A stretch of 48,255 nucleotides of DNA from Actinomycetota bacterium (GTDB lineage Bacteria; Actinomycetota; CADDZG01; WHSQ01), in NCBI GenBank assembly GCA_009379915.1, contig WHSV01000018.1, positions 1-48,255 on the forward strand, written 5' to 3'. Below the pieces are notes generated by a model. It was not told the origin of the DNA and ran no database searches. It saw only the letters and a program-made list of their open reading frames with translations. This document shows positions 461 to 45,384 of the stretch, one piece after another; the stretch's first letter is position 1; every line of letters starts with the position of its first letter. The translations under genes were made by a program, and so were the position numbers.

Positions 461-504
461 CTTTCAAGGCGGTAGCACGGGTTCAAATCCCGTTGGGGCC
501 ACCA
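461..504 (+). repeat. tRNA-Glu(UUC) 3'-end remnant, attachment-site copy 1
   Basis: This segment holds the anticodon loop CTTTCAA (anticodon TTC), the 3' strand of the anticodon stem GGCGG, the variable region, a T-arm ACGGG-TTCAAAT-CCCGT, the acceptor strand TGGGGCC and ACCA. TCGCC just upstream (456-460) pairs with GGCGG, so this copy keeps the complete anticodon arm. The D-arm and 5' acceptor strand are missing, so it is not a functional gene. Bases 469-503 recur identically at 7505-7539 and 14872-14906. It marks the left end of the first presumed integrated segment. Confidence 0.8.
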
Positions 505-2536: not shown

Positions 2537-2782
2537 GTGAAGGAGTTGCTGCCGTTTTGCGCCGGGCTCGCGGTCGGAGGCGGGCTCGCGTTCGTGCGCC
2601 CGATGGTCCGCTGGCTCGCTCTCCCCGGCCTGTGCGTGCCGCTCGGCGCGTTGATGAGCTGGGTGAACGGCGAGCTCGGTTCGAGCCTTTGGCCCGTGTT
2701 CGTCTCGCTCGACGCCCTCCTCGTCTGGGCCGGCGCGGTGCTCGCGCTCGCCGCGATCGCGGCGCGGCGGCGAATCGGGTAG
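2537..2782 (+). CDS. Small membrane protein, unknown function
   Basis: This 81-residue protein starts at GTG 2537 with an AAGGAGG ribosome site five bases away. Two or three hydrophobic segments are visible: LPFCAGLAVGGGLAF, a central LPGLCVPLGALM and a C-terminal LLVWAGAVLALAAIAA followed by RRR. The frame is open to 2369, but the upstream residues lack coding character. It is 15 bases ahead of the next gene on the same strand, making a likely three-gene operon through 5496. No family is recognised. Confidence 0.7.
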   Translation: MKELLPFCAGLAVGGGLAFVRPMVRWLALPGLCVPLGALMSWVNGELGSSLWPVFVSLDALLVWAGAVLALAAIAARRRIG

Positions 2783-2797
2783 CCGGTACGTCGCGCC

Positions 2798-4069
2798 GTG
2801 ACGCTCGCCGAGTTCCTGAAAGGGCTGCTCCTGCGGACACCGCAGGAGATTCTCGTCGCGCTCCTTCGCGCGCTCCTGCTCCTTCCCGTTTTCCTACTCG
2901 TGCTGCTGCTGAAGCTGTGGGAGTGGCTGCTGTGGCTCCTCCACACGAAGACGCTTCGACCCGAGGAGACCGAGGATCCGTGCGGGAGGATCCCTGAGGT
3001 GCTCGTCCGCCGTCCCGATCCGTCGATCTACAGCCAGACGTACCTCGCCGCGCAGGGGGTCCCCGTGACGTGGAACAACCCCGACATCTGGATCGCGCCC
3101 GCGGCGAACCCGGGTGCCGTCGAGCCCGACTCGTACCACCTCGAGGCGAACACCGACTACATCGTGAGCGTCCGCGCGCACAACGCGTCAACCGATCCCG
3201 CGATCGGCGTCCGCGTGCGCTTGGTCTACCGCCCGTGGAGCTTCAACTCGCCGGACGTGACGCCCGTCGAAATTGACGCCGGCGGCAACGAAGTCGTCCG
3301 CAGCGTCGACATCGCCGCGATGGGGTCGGCGGTCGCGCAGTTCAACTGGCATACGCCCGCGCTCGCGCCCGGGGAAAGCGCGCACTACTGCCTGCAGGCG
3401 CACCTTTCCCACCCGCTCGACGTGAACCTCGGGAACAACATGGGGCAGGAGAACACGAACGTCTACAGCCAAAATCCGGGATTCGTCTCGCCCGGCGAGC
3501 TCGCCGCGCTCGACATCCCGCTCTTCAACGTCGGACGGCGTGCGAAGACCGTCCGCTTCAGGGTCGATGCGTACGAGGTCGCGACGGACGACCGGGTGGA
3601 GGTGAGGCTCGAGCGCAGCCGTGGCCGCTCACGCATGCGGTTGAGCGATCGGCTGGGACACGCGCTCCCGACGGTCGAGCCGGTGGAGGTGCACCGTCCG
3701 CGTCGATCGACCGACGACGCGCCCGAGCGCGCTGTCACCGAGACTCGGCGTCGCTCGAAAGCGCTCTTCGGGCGCGTCTGCTTCAGCAGCCCGAAGTCGC
3801 GCTTCGAGGTCGTCCGCACGCGCTACAGCGGCTTCGACGAGCTTCGCGCGCAGATTCTCGACCGCGACTACTCGCTGCCGCCCACGATGACCGTCGCTGC
3901 GCCCGAGCGCGTCACGCTCGAGCCCGCCGCGGCCGCGACTCCGGCGTTCGAGATCCAGGTTCCCGCGGACGCCCGGCCCGGGACACGGCTACCGATGAAC
4001 ATCCGTGCCGAGACCGAGGACGGCGTGCTCATCGGCGGCGTCACTCTCTTCTTCCACGTGAGGCCCTAA
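2798..4069 (+). CDS. Membrane-anchored protein with an extracytoplasmic beta-sandwich region, unknown function
   Basis: This 423-residue product begins with a strongly hydrophobic stretch (about residues 20-48, LLLLPVFLLVLLLKLWEWLL) that would act as a signal anchor. The remainder is soluble. Residues 90-230 contain EANTDYIVSVRAHNAS and LAPGESAHYCLQAHLSHP, the pattern of Ig-like/CARDB domains that handle transport or adhesion outside the cell. The C-terminal 60 residues (MTVAAPERVTLEP to GGVTLFFHVRP) look like a second beta-sandwich. Its GTG start has no strong ribosome site, but the gene overlaps the next by one base (TAATG), indicating translational coupling. The fold assignment is inference from pattern; the function is unknown. 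Confidence 0.7.
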   Translation: MTLAEFLKGLLLRTPQEILVALLRALLLLPVFLLVLLLKLWEWLLWLLHTKTLRPEETEDPCGRIPEVLVRRPDPSIYSQTYLAAQGVPVTWNNPDIWIAPAANPGAVEPDSYHLEANTDYIVSVRAHNASTDPAIGVRVRLVYRPWSFNSPDVTPVEIDAGGNEVVRSVDIAAMGSAVAQFNWHTPALAPGESAHYCLQAHLSHPLDVNLGNNMGQENTNVYSQNPGFVSPGELAALDIPLFNVGRRAKTVRFRVDAYEVATDDRVEVRLERSRGRSRMRLSDRLGHALPTVEPVEVHRPRRSTDDAPERAVTETRRRSKALFGRVCFSSPKSRFEVVRTRYSGFDELRAQILDRDYSLPPTMTVAAPERVTLEPAAAATPAFEIQVPADARPGTRLPMNIRAETEDGVLIGGVTLFFHVRP

Positions 4070-5496
4070 TGCCACGCGACATCCCCACCTACTCGGAGTG
4101 CGCACCGCCCGGCGAGGCGCGAAGCCACAAGCAGCTCGGCGGGATCGCCGGAACCATCGGTAACGCGATCCTCGAGCACACGGCGGTGACGGTGGCCGCG
4201 CTGCTCGCGCTTCTCGTCGGGCTCGTCCTCCTGAACAACCCGCTGACGTGGGCGGTACTCGGCGTGGTCATCATCGCCGGCCTCGAAGAGTTCAAGGACT
4301 GGTACTACAACGGGCGGCTCCTCTGCATCGTCGATCGCGACTGCGCGATTGGCACCGTGATCGCGGAGCCGGAGGCCGCGTTCGACGGCGACCGGAAGCT
4401 CAACCTTTCGCTGGCGCCGTACAGCCAGGGGCAGGTGGTCGAGACGCTGCTCGACCACATCGCGACGAACGAGACGATGCTGATCGACAACGCGAGCTTC
4501 AACGACCCGCCGTTCCACGCGAGCGCACCGCCGCTGCCGGTCGCCGCGCAGCGCGAGAACGATCTCGGAATCCTCCGCGGCTACCTGCGGGCGCTACGCA
4601 GCAGCGACCCCGACGACGGCGACGCGGAGTCGCGAATGTTCCGTCAGCTCCTGATCGGCGTGGTGCACCGACTGATGTCGGATCCGGCGCGGAACTTTTA
4701 CAACCGGTACTACCGTAAGGACGCGGCGTTCATCGCGCCCGGCTCGGCGCTCGACAACGCGATCCCGCGCGACTTCGACACGGCGGTGAACTGGGCAGGG
4801 CCGAACGCACAGAGCGCGGCAACGGAGTTCAACGCGTACATCGGCCGCGACGACTCACTCAACCCCGAGTTCCGGTTCGATACCACGCACGTCGTGCCCT
4901 ACCTCCACTGCGAGATCGAGGGGTACTACATCAAGCTTCTGATCGACAACTTGATCCTCGCGTTCTCCGCGTGGCTCGCAGCGATGCTGCTCCTCTTCTT
5001 CCTCACGCCGTTGGCGCCGCTGATCGCCCTCGGGATCGCGTTGTTGATCTTCTTGATCAAGTGGGTGATCGACGAGCTGACCGGCAACGACGGTGACGCC
5101 GACGAGCCCGACGTCGACGTCGACGACCCCGACGTGACGGACGACGCAGTGCTCGCGTCCTCGGGCGACGTCGTCGTCACGTACGGGAACTGGATCATGG
5201 ACACCGAGCACCACAACTACTTCGAGATCCATCCCGTGCGCGCCTACTACCTCGTCGCGCGCAATTCGCTGGGCCGCGAGCCGGTCCTCATCAACGGGAA
5301 CATGGAGCAGGAGGAGTTCGGGCACGAGAACTTCGACGTCCGGGAAATCGACGCGACGCGCGCGGACGAGATCTGTCGGATCATCACGCGCGGCGAAGAG
5401 GGCGGAACCGACGACGTGATCGAGCGGGCGGGGCCCGAAGCCCTCTCGTACGGGCTGCGCGCCTGGTACGCGGGCGGCAAGCAGCGGATCGCCTGA
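4069..5496 (+). CDS. Multi-pass membrane protein with an EIHPV-motif domain, unknown function
   Basis: The 475-residue product has a hydrophobic hairpin near residues 36-72 (VTVAALLALLVGLVLL, WAVLGVVIIAGL), a soluble middle domain of about 210 residues, a second membrane hairpin near 295-340 (AAMLLLFFLTPLAPLIALG), an acidic linker (DADEPDVDVDDPDVTDD) and a C-terminal domain. That domain carries GNWIMDTEHHNYFEIHPV. A D-x-x-H-x4-E-[IL]-H-P-V pattern is reminiscent of a metal site, but I cannot name the family. ATG 4069 overlaps the previous stop, so the two membrane proteins are co-translated and probably act together. Confidence 0.7.
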   Translation: MPRDIPTYSECAPPGEARSHKQLGGIAGTIGNAILEHTAVTVAALLALLVGLVLLNNPLTWAVLGVVIIAGLEEFKDWYYNGRLLCIVDRDCAIGTVIAEPEAAFDGDRKLNLSLAPYSQGQVVETLLDHIATNETMLIDNASFNDPPFHASAPPLPVAAQRENDLGILRGYLRALRSSDPDDGDAESRMFRQLLIGVVHRLMSDPARNFYNRYYRKDAAFIAPGSALDNAIPRDFDTAVNWAGPNAQSAATEFNAYIGRDDSLNPEFRFDTTHVVPYLHCEIEGYYIKLLIDNLILAFSAWLAAMLLLFFLTPLAPLIALGIALLIFLIKWVIDELTGNDGDADEPDVDVDDPDVTDDAVLASSGDVVVTYGNWIMDTEHHNYFEIHPVRAYYLVARNSLGREPVLINGNMEQEEFGHENFDVREIDATRADEICRIITRGEEGGTDDVIERAGPEALSYGLRAWYAGGKQRIA

Positions 5497-7496: not shown

Positions 7497-7540
7497 CCTT
7501 TCAAGCGGTAGCACGGGTTCAAATCCCGTTGGGGCCACCC
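7497..7540 (+). repeat. tRNA-Glu 3'-end remnant, attachment-site copy 2
   Basis: Bases 7505-7539 are identical to 469-503 (T-arm plus acceptor strand). The anticodon-stem part has lost one G and the terminal A of CCA is C. About 75 bases upstream (TTCGAAGTTGCTCGAAACTC...) and 180 bases downstream are clearly related to the flanks of copy 3, so both junctions come from related integrative elements. Confidence 0.8.
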
Positions 7541-14865: not shown

Positions 14866-14907
14866 CTCAAGGCGGTAGCACGGGTTCAAATCCCGTTGGG
14901 GCCACCA
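14866..14907 (+). repeat. tRNA-Glu 3'-end remnant, attachment-site copy 3
   Basis: Bases 14872-14906 are identical to copies 1 and 2, and a full CCA is present. The anticodon loop is shortened (CTCAAGG). The upstream 75 bases and downstream 200 bases are diverged copies of those around copy 2, which makes the repeat here nearly 300 bases long in total. Confidence 0.8.
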
Positions 14908-31080: not shown

Positions 31081-34000
31081 TCAGCTTCTGCTAACCCCTA
31101 GGCCCTCGATCTTCACTGGTTTGCCATTCGAGCTTATGAGGATCTTGATCGTTCCCCTCGTCACCGAGGAGAAGATCGTGACGTTGATGATCTGCTTCTT
31201 CTTGGCCCTCCTCGCGTTCAGGTCGATCCTCTTGAGCAGCTTCTTGCCGCGCATGACCTTTACTACCCCGCAGCCTCTGCACTTTGTAGCGACCAACGCG
31301 AGCCGCTTGGCCCTGACGTTCTCGAGCCGCAGCCTGGCTCCCTTCTTCGTCGCGGTCGAGAAACTGTTGAGGAAATGGCCCTCGGCATTCTTCTTCTTCC
31401 AACCCTTGCTGTGTATGAACGACTTGTTGTTCACCGGAACCGCCGTGCAGACCTCCCGGCTCGGCTCGGAGGTGGCACCGAGGGTGTCGGTTGCGGTCGC
31501 GCTGAAGCAGGCATTCGTTCCCGGCCGAACGCGGAAGTCGAGTTTGCCCGACACCGAGCGATCGGTTTCGGACACGCCGAAGACGCCGTTGAAGCGAGCC
31601 AGCCGCGAGCTCACGTCGTAGAAAGCGATCCCGTTGGGGTCACTTGCCGAGGCGGTGACGTCAAACGACCTCGTCTCCAGGAATGGGCGCCGGAACCCAC
31701 CAACAGCGACCTCTGTTGGAGGTTCGTTATCCTCATCAGCCTCCTCGATCGTCCAAGAGTGCTGCGCCGGCGTCGGATCGGAGACGCCGGAGGAATTGAC
31801 CGCCCTGACCCTGAAGGTGTGGGATCCGAGGTCGAGTTCCGTGTACTCCCGGGGCGGAGCGCAGCTCGTGAAGGGATCGTCATCGAGGGAGCACTCGAAC
31901 GTCGCACCCGCGTCGTTCGAGGAGAACATGAAGGTGGCATTCGTATCGACGACCACACCAGACGGGCCCGACGTAATCGTGGTCTGCGGTGCGTCACAAC
32001 GGTTTGTCGTCATCAGCATGAAGTCGGCAACCGTAGTATCACCGGCTTCGATCTCCACCGCTTGCATGTGGGGTCTCCACCCGTCGAGGCTGGCAATGAC
32101 CGACAGGGGGCTATGGCGCTCGTCGAGCCAGAGCCCGTACTCCCCATCCGCGTCGGTTCGCAGTGTGTAGCTACTCGCTTGCGAGTCGAGTGCGATCGTG
32201 GCCCCAGGAAGCGTAATGATCGAGCCGTCGCACCGTTCACCGACGACGGTCCCCGACACCTTGCCCCACTGCTCCGGCGGATCGGCGTTCATGTTCACGT
32301 CGAGGGCCAGCGCGTAAGGGGAATCGTTCGCGGCCGTGATCCGGCCCGTGTACGTGCCCGGCTGATCCACCGTCTCGGCTCCCGAGTCGATGGTCAGCGC
32401 GACATCCATGCTCTCGCCCGGATCCAGGGTGAACTCGGTCGTGTCGGCCGAGAGCCACGGGATCTCATTCGACGCCCCGCAGTTTCCGAAGCCCGGCAGG
32501 ACCTCGGATCGGGGGATCCGGGAGAAGCCGCCGACCGAGCCACCGATCTTGTAGAACCCACAGGAGCTGCCACCGCGAAAGACGGCCTCGTTGGAGTTCG
32601 GGATCGGCGACCATTCGTCCGCGGCCGGATCGTAAGCAATGCCCTCATTGGTGATGGCGGCTCCACCGTCGACCGAGCCGCCGGAGATCAGTAGCTTGCC
32701 GTTCGCCGCGGCGTACCCCGAACCCCAGAGGTCCATCGGCATGCTGGCGATCGGCGCCCAGTCATCGTCGCGAGGGTCGTAGACGTAGGCATTGCTCGTG
32801 GTCCCAGTGCTCCAGACCCCGCCGGCGCAGTAGAGTCTGCCGCCGATGCCGCCGCACGACGCATACGAGACCGCCTCCGGATAGTCGGCTGCCCGCCGCC
32901 ACGTGTCGGTGGCGGGCTCGTAGGCGAACACGTCGTCGTTCCCACAGGTGCTACCGGAGCTGCCGCTGCAACCGCCGACGACATACATCGTCTCGTCGAC
33001 GACGCCAACCGCAGACGAGGCGAAGGCCACCGGCACAGGAGAACCGGTCGACCACGTGTCACTCGCAGGGTTGTAGATCTCCAGGGTCGTGACCGGCACG
33101 CCGTTTGTCCACCAGCCACCGACCACGTAGACCCTGCCGTTTATGTAGGCAACGGCCGGCCTCGCGCGCTCCCAGCTCATTGCCCCCCTCGGGGACCAGG
33201 TGCCCTCGTCCGGGTCGTAGGCGAGCACTTCGTTTTGCGTGCCGGTCGCCGAGCCACCGATCGAGTAAACGGTGCCGTCGTCTGCGGTCACCGCGCTGTT
33301 GTCCATGATCGGTGTCGGGTAGTTGGCGATCGCGGTCCACGGGGGGGCCGAGGGCGACTTACCGGCCTCCGGCTCGCTCTCGCCCATCTTGGTTCCACCG
33401 GACCAGCCCAGGTTGAAGCTTCCCTCGATCCTTTGGGCGGGAGCTCCGGTTTTCTCCGAGAGGATCGTTGAGCTGCTGCCGTTCTCGCGCAGCGAGACCC
33501 CGACCGGAGCCGTGCCGTCGTTGGTGAAGGTCACGGTCTGGTTGGTCGAGTCCCCCAGCGTCTGCGCAATTGAGACGGCTTCGGGATCCACGACGAGATG
33601 ACCGGCTCGCAGGCTGAAGTCGTTTCGAGTCACCCAGTGGGGGGCCACGTTCACAGTCCGGGTGTCCGGTTCGTAGCCTGCGCGGCTCGCGGTAAAGGGC
33701 TGCGCGCCCACCCTGGAAGAGAACAGCCAGTAGAAACCGTCGGCGAGACCCGGGTCGTTCGGCGTCGCCGCCGACATGACCTTCTCGTCGGTTGCGCCCT
33801 CGCTCGCGATCTCAGCACCCGCGAGGAAAGCATCGGTATTCGCGTCAACTACCTGACCGGCCACCAGCCCGCCGCGCACGGGGGCGCAGAACTCGACCCC
33901 GAAGACGACGTTGTCGATCTGCCACCACCCCGCGTTCATGGTCGTGTAGCGGAAACGGATGCGCGCCTCGGGCGCCCCGCCCGCCTGGGGCAGGTCGATG

Positions 34001-36417
34001 TGCACCGGCTGGCGCCGCTGCCCACCCGAGGTGCGGCGCCAGACGTTCTCCCAGGTTTGCCCGCCGTCGAGGCTGAGGTCGATCTCTCCGGTCGCGACGC
34101 CGGGGCTCTGAGCCGTGTAGTCGATGTTGAAGGTCAGGACGGGATCGGGAACATCGGTCAAGTCCGCCACCGGCGTCATGAGCGTGGAGTCCCAGCGGAT
34201 GAAGTCGGGGAGGAAATTCCCGTCAAAGATCGCGAAGCCGCCGCTCCCACCCGTTTGGTTGCCTCGGTTGCCGGGGTCGTCGAAGACCCAAACACCACCC
34301 GCGTCGTTGTTGTCGAGCACGGTCCAGCCCTCGGGGGCGCTCGGGTCGTCAAATGAGGACGATGCCCCGGTCACCGCCCAGTCGTAGCCCGGCGCGCTAC
34401 AGGACTCGGCGTCGATCGGGACCTCGATGTCGTGCCTCAACTCTCCGACACCGGTTTCGATGACATCCTCCATCACCTCGTAGCCCGGGAGCTGCGGCGT
34501 GATCCGCAGCGTGTATGTGGAATTCGACGGCAATTCGAGTCTGTACTCGCCCGTGTAGGGGTCCGTGAAGATCGAGTCGAGCTGCTCTCCCACGACCGCG
34601 ATCCGCGCATAGAGCGGCCAGCCGTGACCGGAGCCGTCCAGCACGGCCCCCTCGACCTGGACCGTGTCTAGCGCGGTCAACTCGACATCCAGGGTCAGCG
34701 TCTGATCGGCTGCAATATGCGCCGTCGTGACGGTGGTTTCGTAGCCGAACGCCTCGACCCTGACCTCGTAGTCCCCTGGGATCAGGATCAACGAGTAGGT
34801 CCCGTCGTTCCGGGTGCTGGTCTCGCGCGCGATGGGCCCTGTCACCGAGACGGTTGCCCGCCGGACAGGTTCTTCGGTTTGCGCATCGGTCACTCCGCCG
34901 GTGAGCGTACCGATTCCGCCGCCGGAGCTGCCCTCAACCAGGGCGAGAGCATCCAGGCGACCCTCCCCATAGACGTTGTTGTCCTCGGCTTCACCCCCGC
35001 ATTGGTCGTCGGGCGTGTTGGTCGCGGTGAGGTCGAGCAATGCCCGCGTACCCTCGATGTCGCCTATGAGAGTCGGGTCGGCCGACCACAGCAGGGCGAT
35101 CGCCCCGGTCACGTGAGGGGTGGCCATCGACGTTCCCGAGAGCGCGCCGTAGAAATTGCCCTGTTGAGCCGAGCGTACCGACACGCCGGGCGCGGCGATA
35201 TTTGGTTTCGTTACACCGTCCTGGCCGTGTCCCCGGCTGGAGAAACTGGCGATGGTGTTGTTGATGTCGTATGCGCCGACCGAGTAGGTCAGACTCCGGC
35301 TGCCGGGCGAGCTGCTGGTCGAACAGCTCGGCCCATTGTTCCCGTTGGCCCAGACTCCGAATATGCCGGAGTCGGCCCAGCTCTCCAGGATGTCTTCCAT
35401 GAACGGATCGTTCGAGGGGAAACGAGAGCCCCAGGAGTTGTTGATGATGTGCGGACGTTTGCTCACGTCAGGATTGCCGCCGTCCGAGTCGGTCGGCGCC
35501 AGCATCCACTGGGCCGATTTGATGAGGTCGACGTCGGTGCAGGTCGCGCAGCCATTCGCCGCGATCCATTGTGCTCTCGGGGCAACACCGATCTGGTTGC
35601 TGGCGCCGTCGTCGCCGACGATCGTGCCCATCGTGTGGGTGCCGTGTGAACTCTGCTGGTTCGCATCGCACGGAGCGCCGGTGCAGGCGCCCGCGACATC
35701 GAGCCAGTTGTAGTCGTGGTCGAAAGTCCCGTCGCCATTGTTTCCCCGGTACGAGGCCGCCAAGGCGGGGTGGTCGAACTGAACGCCGCTGTCGATGTTG
35801 GCGACGACGACGCCCTGACCTCGGATTCCGAACTCGTCCCAGACGTCGTCCGCGTTGATATTCGCCACGCCCCACTCGACCGCGTTCTGGATGCTCTCGG
35901 TCTCGACCTCTACCGGATTGGGCTTCTGGTAAACCCTGGTCGGCCGGATCTCGGCGACTTCGTTCAAGTCGGCGACGTCGTCTGCGACCGTCAGCGTCCC
36001 GCCCCTCACCAGGATTGCATTGGTGACCCAGAAGGACCGATAGGGCTGTCCTTCGGCTTCAAGCAACTCGCGTGCGCGAGCTTGTGCATCCCTAGCAGTT
36101 TCCCTCAAGGTGTCCACGACCTTCTGGCCGCGGGACGGCCAGTCTCTCAGGTCGCGTGCTCGCGACGTGTCGCCCCTGTCATCGAACCGGATCCAGAAGT
36201 CGGCGACGCCCCCTTGTTCTAACTTCTCAAGCACCTGGGGAGCGATCTTGGCTTCCGCATCCCGGGCACCGCTCAGTGAGCTAGAAGACGACGCCGGTGC
36301 GGGTACCGACAACACACCCAGGAAGATGAGGACGCACGGCAGAATGCAGGCGAGCCGAACCCTCCCCCGGATTAGGTGGAAGTTGCCGTTGGGCAGTGGC
36401 ACTCTTGATTCCCCCAT
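31081..36417 (-). CDS. Giant secreted subtilisin-like (S8) peptidase with kelch and accessory beta domains
   Basis: The 1778-residue protein starts with an export signal (residues 20-43, LACILPCVLIFLGVLSVPAP) and an I9-like propeptide. The S8 domain has Asp209 in VANIDSGVQFDHP, His258 in SSHGTHTMG and Ser430 in LSGTSMATPHV. Carboxypeptidase-regulatory-like domains follow (GTLTGGVTDAQTEEPVRRAT; VQVEGAVLDGSG), then a jelly-roll domain as in immune inhibitor A (WTVLDNNDAGGVWVFDDPGN, WWQIDNVVFG), another regulatory-like domain, and a kelch propeller of about six repeats (VYSIGGSATG, VYVVGGWWTN, MYVVGGCSGS). The C-terminal part has Ig-like domains. No LPXTG or transmembrane anchor is obvious, so it is probably released. 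Its stop is 190 bases from the BsuPI gene; an activator-like gene is upstream on the same strand. Confidence 0.93.
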   Translation of the reverse strand: MGESRVPLPNGNFHLIRGRVRLACILPCVLIFLGVLSVPAPASSSSSLSGARDAEAKIAPQVLEKLEQGGVADFWIRFDDRGDTSRARDLRDWPSRGQKVVDTLRETARDAQARARELLEAEGQPYRSFWVTNAILVRGGTLTVADDVADLNEVAEIRPTRVYQKPNPVEVETESIQNAVEWGVANINADDVWDEFGIRGQGVVVANIDSGVQFDHPALAASYRGNNGDGTFDHDYNWLDVAGACTGAPCDANQQSSHGTHTMGTIVGDDGASNQIGVAPRAQWIAANGCATCTDVDLIKSAQWMLAPTDSDGGNPDVSKRPHIINNSWGSRFPSNDPFMEDILESWADSGIFGVWANGNNGPSCSTSSSPGSRSLTYSVGAYDINNTIASFSSRGHGQDGVTKPNIAAPGVSVRSAQQGNFYGALSGTSMATPHVTGAIALLWSADPTLIGDIEGTRALLDLTATNTPDDQCGGEAEDNNVYGEGRLDALALVEGSSGGGIGTLTGGVTDAQTEEPVRRATVSVTGPIARETSTRNDGTYSLILIPGDYEVRVEAFGYETTVTTAHIAADQTLTLDVELTALDTVQVEGAVLDGSGHGWPLYARIAVVGEQLDSIFTDPYTGEYRLELPSNSTYTLRITPQLPGYEVMEDVIETGVGELRHDIEVPIDAESCSAPGYDWAVTGASSSFDDPSAPEGWTVLDNNDAGGVWVFDDPGNRGNQTGGSGGFAIFDGNFLPDFIRWDSTLMTPVADLTDVPDPVLTFNIDYTAQSPGVATGEIDLSLDGGQTWENVWRRTSGGQRRQPVHIDLPQAGGAPEARIRFRYTTMNAGWWQIDNVVFGVEFCAPVRGGLVAGQVVDANTDAFLAGAEIASEGATDEKVMSAATPNDPGLADGFYWLFSSRVGAQPFTASRAGYEPDTRTVNVAPHWVTRNDFSLRAGHLVVDPEAVSIAQTLGDSTNQTVTFTNDGTAPVGVSLRENGSSSTILSEKTGAPAQRIEGSFNLGWSGGTKMGESEPEAGKSPSAPPWTAIANYPTPIMDNSAVTADDGTVYSIGGSATGTQNEVLAYDPDEGTWSPRGAMSWERARPAVAYINGRVYVVGGWWTNGVPVTTLEIYNPASDTWSTGSPVPVAFASSAVGVVDETMYVVGGCSGSSGSTCGNDDVFAYEPATDTWRRAADYPEAVSYASCGGIGGRLYCAGGVWSTGTTSNAYVYDPRDDDWAPIASMPMDLWGSGYAAANGKLLISGGSVDGGAAITNEGIAYDPAADEWSPIPNSNEAVFRGGSSCGFYKIGGSVGGFSRIPRSEVLPGFGNCGASNEIPWLSADTTEFTLDPGESMDVALTIDSGAETVDQPGTYTGRITAANDSPYALALDVNMNADPPEQWGKVSGTVVGERCDGSIITLPGATIALDSQASSYTLRTDADGEYGLWLDERHSPLSVIASLDGWRPHMQAVEIEAGDTTVADFMLMTTNRCDAPQTTITSGPSGVVVDTNATFMFSSNDAGATFECSLDDDPFTSCAPPREYTELDLGSHTFRVRAVNSSGVSDPTPAQHSWTIEEADEDNEPPTEVAVGGFRRPFLETRSFDVTASASDPNGIAFYDVSSRLARFNGVFGVSETDRSVSGKLDFRVRPGTNACFSATATDTLGATSEPSREVCTAVPVNNKSFIHSKGWKKKNAEGHFLNSFSTATKKGARLRLENVRAKRLALVATKCRGCGVVKVMRGKKLLKRIDLNARRAKKKQIINVTIFSSVTRGTIKILISSNGKPVKIEGLGVSRS

Positions 36418-43555: not shown

Positions 43556-45384
43556 TGGGCGCGGAATGTTCCCGCGCCGCTGCGGACCTTTCTGCAAACC
43601 GAAGTAAGCGGCGCGGTCTTTCTGCTCGTCGCGACCATCGCTGCGCTGGTGTGGGCCAATTCCCCGTGGAGCTCGAGCTACGAAAGCCTGTGGTCGACCG
43701 AGCTCTCGCTCCGCCTCGGCGAGGTCGGTCTGGAGGGCGACCTGCACTACTGGGTCAACGACGGGCTGATGGCGTTCTTCTTTTTCGTCGTCGGGCTCGA
43801 GGTGCGGCGCGAGTTCGACATGGGCGAGCTCCGCGACCGCCGGCGCGTCGCAGTGCCTGCGCTCGCGGCGCTCGGCGGGATGCTGCTCCCGGTCGTGATC
43901 TATCTCGCCTTCGCCTCGGGAAGCAACGCGGCGCGCGGCTGGGGCATGGTCATGCCCACCGACACGGCCTTCGCCCTCCGCGTGCTCGCGCTCGTGGGTC
44001 GCCGCTGCCCCCCGCGGCTGCGGGGCCTTCGTTCTCACGGTCGCAATCGCAGACGACATCGGAGTACTGCTGGTTATCGCCTTCGCCTGCACGAGCGAGC
44101 TCTCGCTCGTAGCTCTGGCAAGCGCCGGGCTGCTATTCAGCTTGGTGCTAACGCTGCTTCGGCTGGGCGTGCTCCGCAGGCCTTCCTTGATCCTGCTCGC
44201 GATCGCCGTCTGGGTTGCGACGCCCGAGTCGGGCGTTCATCCGACCATCGCCGGGGTCGTGCTCGGACTCATCGTGGGTGGGCGCCCGCCCGAGCGTCCC
44301 GATGTCGAACGAGCAACCACCATCGCCCGCCTCTTTCGCGAACAGCCCACTCCCCAGCTTGCCCGTGCCGCGTGTCTGAGCGTGCTGGGCGCCGTCTCTC
44401 GGAACGAACGGCTCCAGTACGCGCTCCATCCGTGGTCCAGCTTCGTCATCGTGCCCTTGTTCGCGCTCGCCAATGCGGGGCTGCGCGTCGACGGGGGTCA
44501 CCCTCGGCGTAGTGGCCGGTCTTGTCGGGGGCAAGTTTCTCGGGATCGGTCTCACGACGCTGCTCGCCGCCCATCCCCGGCTGGGACGGTTACCGCTGAC
44601 CATCGAGCTGCCGAAGGTCTTCGGCGTCGCGGCCGTCGCCGGGATCGGCTTCACGCTCTCCCTGTTCATCGCCGAGCTCGCCTTCCAAGGCGAGGAGCTC
44701 GAAGAGGCCAAGGTCGGTGTCCTGGCGGCGTCCCTCGCTGCCGCGCTGCTGGGGTACGCGGTCTTCGAGGGGATGAGGCACATCCCCCAGCCGGGCCTGA
44801 AACGTGCCGGGTTGACCCCCGCCGAGCCGCTGATCGACCTGGCCGTCCCGGTCGACCCGGAGCGAGATCACGTCCGCGGGATGAAGGATGCGGCCGTCAC
44901 CCTGGTCGAATACGGAGACTTCGAGTGCCCCTACTGCCGCCGGGCGGAGGCGGCGATCCGTGAGTTGCTCACCGACTTCGCGAACGACCTGCGCTACGTC
45001 TGGCGCCACCTCCCGCTGAGCGACGTCCACCCGCAGGCGCAGCTGGCGGCCGAGGCGGCCGAGGCCGCCGCCGCACAGGGGGCGTTCCGGCCGATGCACG
45101 ATCTCCTTATCAGCCACCAGGAAGCACTCGAGCTGCCCGATCTCAAACGCTACGCCGGAGAGCTCGGTCTCAACCTCGAGTGCTTCTGGGACGACCTCCG
45201 CTCCAGGACGCACGCGCCACGCATCGCCGATGACGTCGACAGCGCAGACGCGAGCCGCGTCTCCGGGACCCCAAGCTTCTTCGTCAACGGCCGTCGCCAC
45301 GAGGATGCGTACGACATCGAGACGCTCTCGAGACTCGTCCGCGAGGCACTCGCCGCCGCTTCTGGCGCGAGCGGGCGGCGCTGA
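43556..45384 (+). pseudogene. nhaA: NhaA Na+/H+ antiporter fused to a DsbA-like thioredoxin domain, two frameshifts
   Basis: Three frames join into one protein. The first (to about 44020) has PLRTFLQTEVSGAVFLLVAT, LMAFFFFVVGLEVRREFDMG. An extra G in GCGGGG shifts to AFVLTVAIADDIGVLLVIAF, where the Asp pair of IADD corresponds to the NhaA ion-binding aspartates. An extra G in a run of five near 44500 shifts to GVTLGVVAGLVGGKFLGIGL and the remaining membrane helices. A DsbA-like domain follows (VTLVEYGDFECPYCRRAEAA; CPYC redox motif; VSGTPSFFVNGRRHED). NhaA-DsbA fusions are a known actinobacterial type. Both shifts lie in G runs while the protein is well conserved, so sequencing error is quite possible. 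Confidence 0.85.

Follow-up and report, generated by a model that had tools for sequence, protein, structure and literature searches.

A two-gene membrane module of undescribed kind shared by an Actinomycetota contig and a Saprospiraceae genome

Three tightly packed genes, here called A, B and C, lie on a contig of 48,255 nucleotides (WHSV01000018.1, our contig C134) from an Actinomycetota genome of 3.39 Mb in 158 contigs; this whole contig is the window that we analyzed. As judged by sequence comparison, B and C are a conserved two-gene module of undescribed kind, known from two phyla, and the module is rare and patchy in its distribution. It probably spread by horizontal transfer, and its partners probably cooperate. 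Our preferred, still tentative reading is that this transferred gene pair makes a membrane-bound protein complex. Two genes that had been orphans can now be tested as a module: partner and domains are defined, and candidate key residues are named.

The gene cassette and its relative in Saprospiraceae

All three genes, and the protein features mapped below, are on the forward strand. A (2537..2782, GTG start) encodes a small hydrophobic membrane protein of 81 aa and is immediately preceded by a AAGGAGGT ribosome-binding site. B (2798..4069, GTG start) encodes a membrane-anchored Ig/CARDB-like protein of 423 aa, and C (4069..5496, ATG start) a protein of 475 aa with two membrane hairpins and a domain that we refer to as EIHPV. 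A and B are 15 bases apart, while B and C overlap by one base; the original prediction had given the coordinates, frames and tight packing of the three genes correctly. We read the three frames as coding because their GC3 is high (0.93 for A, 0.88 for B and 0.92 for C); 23 other genes and gene fragments in the window have a mean GC3 of 0.75 (SD 0.05). The view that none of the proteins belongs to a known family held up as well, since scans of Pfam, NCBIfam, PHROGs and PADLOC gave nothing above a family cut-off for A, B or C. PDB sequence searches with profiles of B and C gave no convincing match.

The pair was found again in an uncultured Saprospiraceae metagenome-assembled genome of the Bacteroidota (locus L002, contig CALGNN010000027.1), in which B and C are adjacent and in the same order as in the window. 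Over their full lengths, B is 42% identical to its counterpart (L002:6793-7995) and C is 41% identical (L002:8001-9521). The two genes are separated by 5 bases there, where those of the window overlap, and B is single-copy in that genome, adjoining C. B and C are thus, by these alignments, beyond chance, because both have full-length homologues of 41-42% identity, and these homologues are again neighbors in a Bacteroidota genome. GC3 of the pair in L002 is 0.25-0.26 and that of its neighbors 0.26-0.29; because its composition is host-like, the pair is unlikely to stem from a contaminating contig. An A-like gene was not found directly upstream. The check for co-occurrence in other genomes that was proposed for the original three-gene cassette therefore led to a pair: B and C are found together elsewhere, and A is absent there.

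When about 85,000 species genomes were scanned with C, L002 was the sole confirmed relative, in a search by short exact peptide patterns that distant relatives can escape. Further full-length versions of C were not found in 16 genomes of the order, 24 of the class and 396 of the phylum to which the window's genome belongs, nor in the class of L002, from which 395 genomes were searched. Among the 23 other genomes searched in the window genome's class, no relative was found. Likewise, a search with B through 398 genomes belonging to the L002 order turned up no further full-length homologue. Searches for homologues of B in viral contigs and plasmids, and of C in viral contigs, plasmids and phages, were negative. 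Two instances of the pair are known, and the co-occurrence is therefore two of two, no more.

For A, weak scattered matches were obtained, the best of which (E 8.8e-4) lay within a 439-aa open frame; they were set aside as likely chance. With A missing from L002 and none of its matches convincing as a relative, its membership in the module is unproven. Possibly it is a small lineage-specific partner of B and C.

Island context and probable foreign origin

High GC3 and flanking repeats of the tRNA-Glu 3' end give the cassette the look of foreign DNA in an island at this tRNA gene. The repeat, a copy of the 3' end of tRNA-Glu that is exact over 33 bp, marks both the left border (471..503) and the right border (7507..7539), on the forward strand in each case, as expected for an integrative element at tRNA-Glu; the two copies support the earlier claim that the cassette sits in an integrated segment. 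A third exact 33-bp copy is located at 14874-14906, so that the copies are spaced 7036 and 7367 bases, and tandem islands at tRNA-Glu are the simplest reading. The contig carries no intact tRNA, and an intact tRNA-Glu(TTC) is present on contig C10. The genome contains 13 matches to the tyrosine integrase family PF00589, none of them on the contig of the cassette (serine integrases were outside this search); because a tyrosine recombinase is missing from the contig, the elements would be remnants or would have been moved by an integrase encoded elsewhere.

The description of the region as full of broken genes was partly right, in that an IS630-like transposase and NhaA are each split across frames. 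The transposase (1189-2243), just upstream of the cassette, reads in one frame through its helix-turn-helix and the start of its DDE domain, the remainder of which continues in a different frame after a switch near 1950-1956; the switch is due to either decay or a programmed frameshift. The NhaA Na+/H+ antiporter (43649-45384) extends over two frames, the second of which runs into a DsbA/thioredoxin-like domain. By eye, candidate remnants of a formylglycine-generating-enzyme type, with stops and frame changes, are visible at 586-1000. The window also encodes a subtilase of 1778 aa with carboxypeptidase-regulatory-like domains and Kelch repeats (31081-36417).

Such surroundings raise the alternative that A, B and C are passenger DNA, functionless in the host, and that the pairing of B and C reflects one ancestral operon only. 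The foreign codon composition of the three genes, the decay of neighboring genes and the lack of a relative in the 23 other searched genomes of the class would all agree with this, but the three frames have stayed intact beside decayed genes. Moreover, the pair persists in two phyla with 41-42% identity and has a host-like composition in L002, and selection therefore acts in at least some hosts. We consider functionless DNA unlikely, and the same intact frames and conserved homologues substantiate the original prediction that the genes are under selection.

Domains of B and C

B had been said to fit no family. It indeed remains below every cut-off, but its main domain is a CARDB-like Ig domain. 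Residues 83-213 (3044..3436) can be aligned with the C-terminal portion of L006, a protein of 780 residues from another genome of the order of L002 (hhalign E 7.1e-7, BLASTP 3e-10), and the aligned stretch of that protein matches Pfam CARDB at 1.1e-4. A direct comparison of B with the CARDB model (PF07705) gave no match at E<=1. L006 also contains a HELFH motif of the HExxH metalloprotease-like kind, and its match to NF045524 is sub-threshold (40 bits vs a cut-off of 140 bits). A second, C-terminal Ig-like domain is predicted at residues 362-421 of B (3881..4060) from sub-threshold Ig matches in this region, to PF23619 in B (0.0016) and to PF11614 in the L002 homologue (9.7e-5). The hydropathy profile of B shows one long hydrophobic stretch, residues 14-50 (2837..2947), which would be a membrane anchor or a re-entrant hairpin; because positive charges flank it on both sides, a signal anchor and its alternative both stand. 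A match to this hydrophobic N-terminus (G1016) was set aside as likely chance. On these grounds, B is best described as a putative membrane-anchored Ig-like protein without an enzyme part.

Structure prediction contributed little to this description. Based on alignments of two sequences, the AlphaFold models of C and B reached a mean pLDDT of 36 and 46, respectively, and were too poor for use. Within the otherwise poor model of B, residues 11-50 form a helix with a block pLDDT of 67-85. Foldseek with this strand-rich model returned no significant match; the CARDB structure 3idu was among the non-significant ones.

C has the predicted build of two hairpins, an acidic linker and a motif: hydropathy marks stretches at residues 32-72 and 288-339, followed by the linker and DTEHHNYFEIHPV. 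The first stretch (4162..4284) contains helices in the AlphaFold model (mean pLDDT 36), and the second (4930..5085) coincides with a helix at residues 282-337 of the same model. The linker (5086..5160) has retained its acidic character in the L002 homologue. As to the motif, it is present as predicted, but it proved to be the hallmark of a domain shared with otherwise unrelated, mostly exported or anchored proteins. The profile of C found a secreted-looking protein of the same phylum (in G188) with a per-genome E of 4.2e-4 via GDxVxxYGxWIxDxxH...EIHPV, and the domain of that protein in turn found C with a per-genome E of 0.0015. These forward and reverse matches place the conserved core, GxxVxxxGxWxxDxxH...EIHP, at residues 366-394 of C (5164..5250).

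By chaining, the EIHPV domain was found at loci L013, L014, L016, L017, L022, L023 and L024 and in WP_198854289.1, a 'hypothetical protein' encoded on a plasmid of Alicyclobacillus sp. SO9; L024 is a repeat protein from the window genome's own class. Across these loci and L031, GxxVxxxGxWxxDxxH...EIHP is seen as a recurrent, mostly exported domain. Some members have N-terminal hydrophobic segments, and some have sub-threshold Excalibur-like tails (in the first of the two queries, the prefix deviates from the locus sequence at a few residues). All nine members compared agree at eight positions (G, G, D, H, E, I, H and P); this set includes C and its L002 homologue and leaves out L024, which is without the first His. 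Neither Pfam nor NCBIfam has a model that covers the domain, and a literature search with the motif string returned unrelated papers. From the reciprocal profile matches, the core in C belongs to an uncatalogued domain with the hallmark GxWxxDxxH...EIHP, which is elsewhere found mostly in secreted or anchored proteins. The domain may merit a new family entry, as it is recurrent and mostly exported and has no Pfam or NCBIfam match.

A metal ion could be held by the conserved Asp, His, Glu and His (D378, H381, E386 and H388 of C). The same four residues also invite a different interpretation, in which C is an enzyme with the EIHPV domain as its catalytic site and B is a subunit that targets it to the envelope; the B-type Ig domain is indeed the C-terminal accessory part of the metalloprotease-like protein L006. 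However, none of the catalytic families in the searched libraries matches the motif, and the domain also occurs in small proteins without other recognizable enzymatic parts. An enzymatic C therefore seems improbable to us, and we retain the membrane-bound complex as our preferred reading.

One-piece members of the family show GTV...DGD...L and a (V/H)xEI strand ahead of the core. In C, GTV...DGDRKLNL is present around residues 95-113 and LHCEI at residues 279-283 (4903..4917); a long insert separates these two, and hairpin 2 lies between LHCEI and the core. When the front pieces of C were aligned with the family, hhalign scored 17.3, whereas column shuffles gave 8.8 ± 2.1 and reached such a score once in 200; the segments had been picked with a split domain in mind. 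In a control with random pairs of C segments, the top scores came from first segments that overlapped the region of residues 86-117, while the partner segment was non-specific. This alignment is suggestive of residues 86-117 (4324..4419; GTV...DGD..LNL) as the candidate first half of the domain. For LHCEI, which aligns with L(V/H)xEI of the family and is weak alone, the assignment as the third strand is weak. It would be an unusual means of anchoring an exported barrel domain in the membrane if the domain were indeed split. The corresponding full picture, an undescribed membrane complex in which an exported-type, putative metal-binding barrel is split by a hairpin and assembled around its own anchor, has an Ig-arm partner and moves between phyla as a two-gene unit, strikes us as decidedly unlikely.

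Proposed role and comparison with known systems

According to the reading that we prefer, a transferred module for a membrane-bound complex, B and C would interact physically within or at the membrane. The EIHPV domain of C would be a putative metal-binding head clamped to the membrane by the two hairpins, and the Ig domains of B may be an arm that binds a partner, which could be a surface polymer, another protein or C. As a working guess, the pair might serve in binding or assembly at the cell envelope, as an accessory function gained via genomic islands. Basic residues (K/R) are found on the soluble sides of both proteins, and the hairpin turns of C are short and uncharged. This pattern would fit cytoplasmic domains, while the EIHPV relatives look exported.

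The patchy distribution across phyla and the island location would also suit an uncharacterized anti-phage defense or other conflict module, perhaps together with A, in which C would be the membrane effector and B the sensor. A further parallel comes from Thermococcales, in which Ig proteins are described that belong to a hypervariable gene module discussed in terms of self/nonself recognition (PMC8416519). We regard such a role as very unlikely, considering that A, B and C have no PADLOC match, that nuclease, NTPase and nucleotide-signaling domains were not found in them by profile scans, and that defense neighbors were recognized at neither the window locus nor L002.

The membrane-complex module can be compared with four known systems. 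The pair in L002 shares with that of the window both genes, their order and full-length homology; it differs in being without A, in its low GC and in its neighbors. CARDB (PF07705) proteins resemble B through the alignment of its residues 83-213 with the CARDB-bearing stretch of L006, whereas B falls below the CARDB model, carries a membrane segment at its N-terminus and is without a catalytic domain. The MXAN_6640-like putative metalloproteases (NF045524), to which L006 is related below the family cut-off, have in L006 an Ig domain and a GGV(S/T)-type C-terminus, both also present in B, which in contrast has no protease domain. Finally, EIHPV-domain proteins such as WP_198854289.1 share the conserved core GxxVxxxGxWxxDxxH...EIHP with C, but they have the domain in one piece, while C adds two hairpins, an insert of about 150 residues and an acidic linker.
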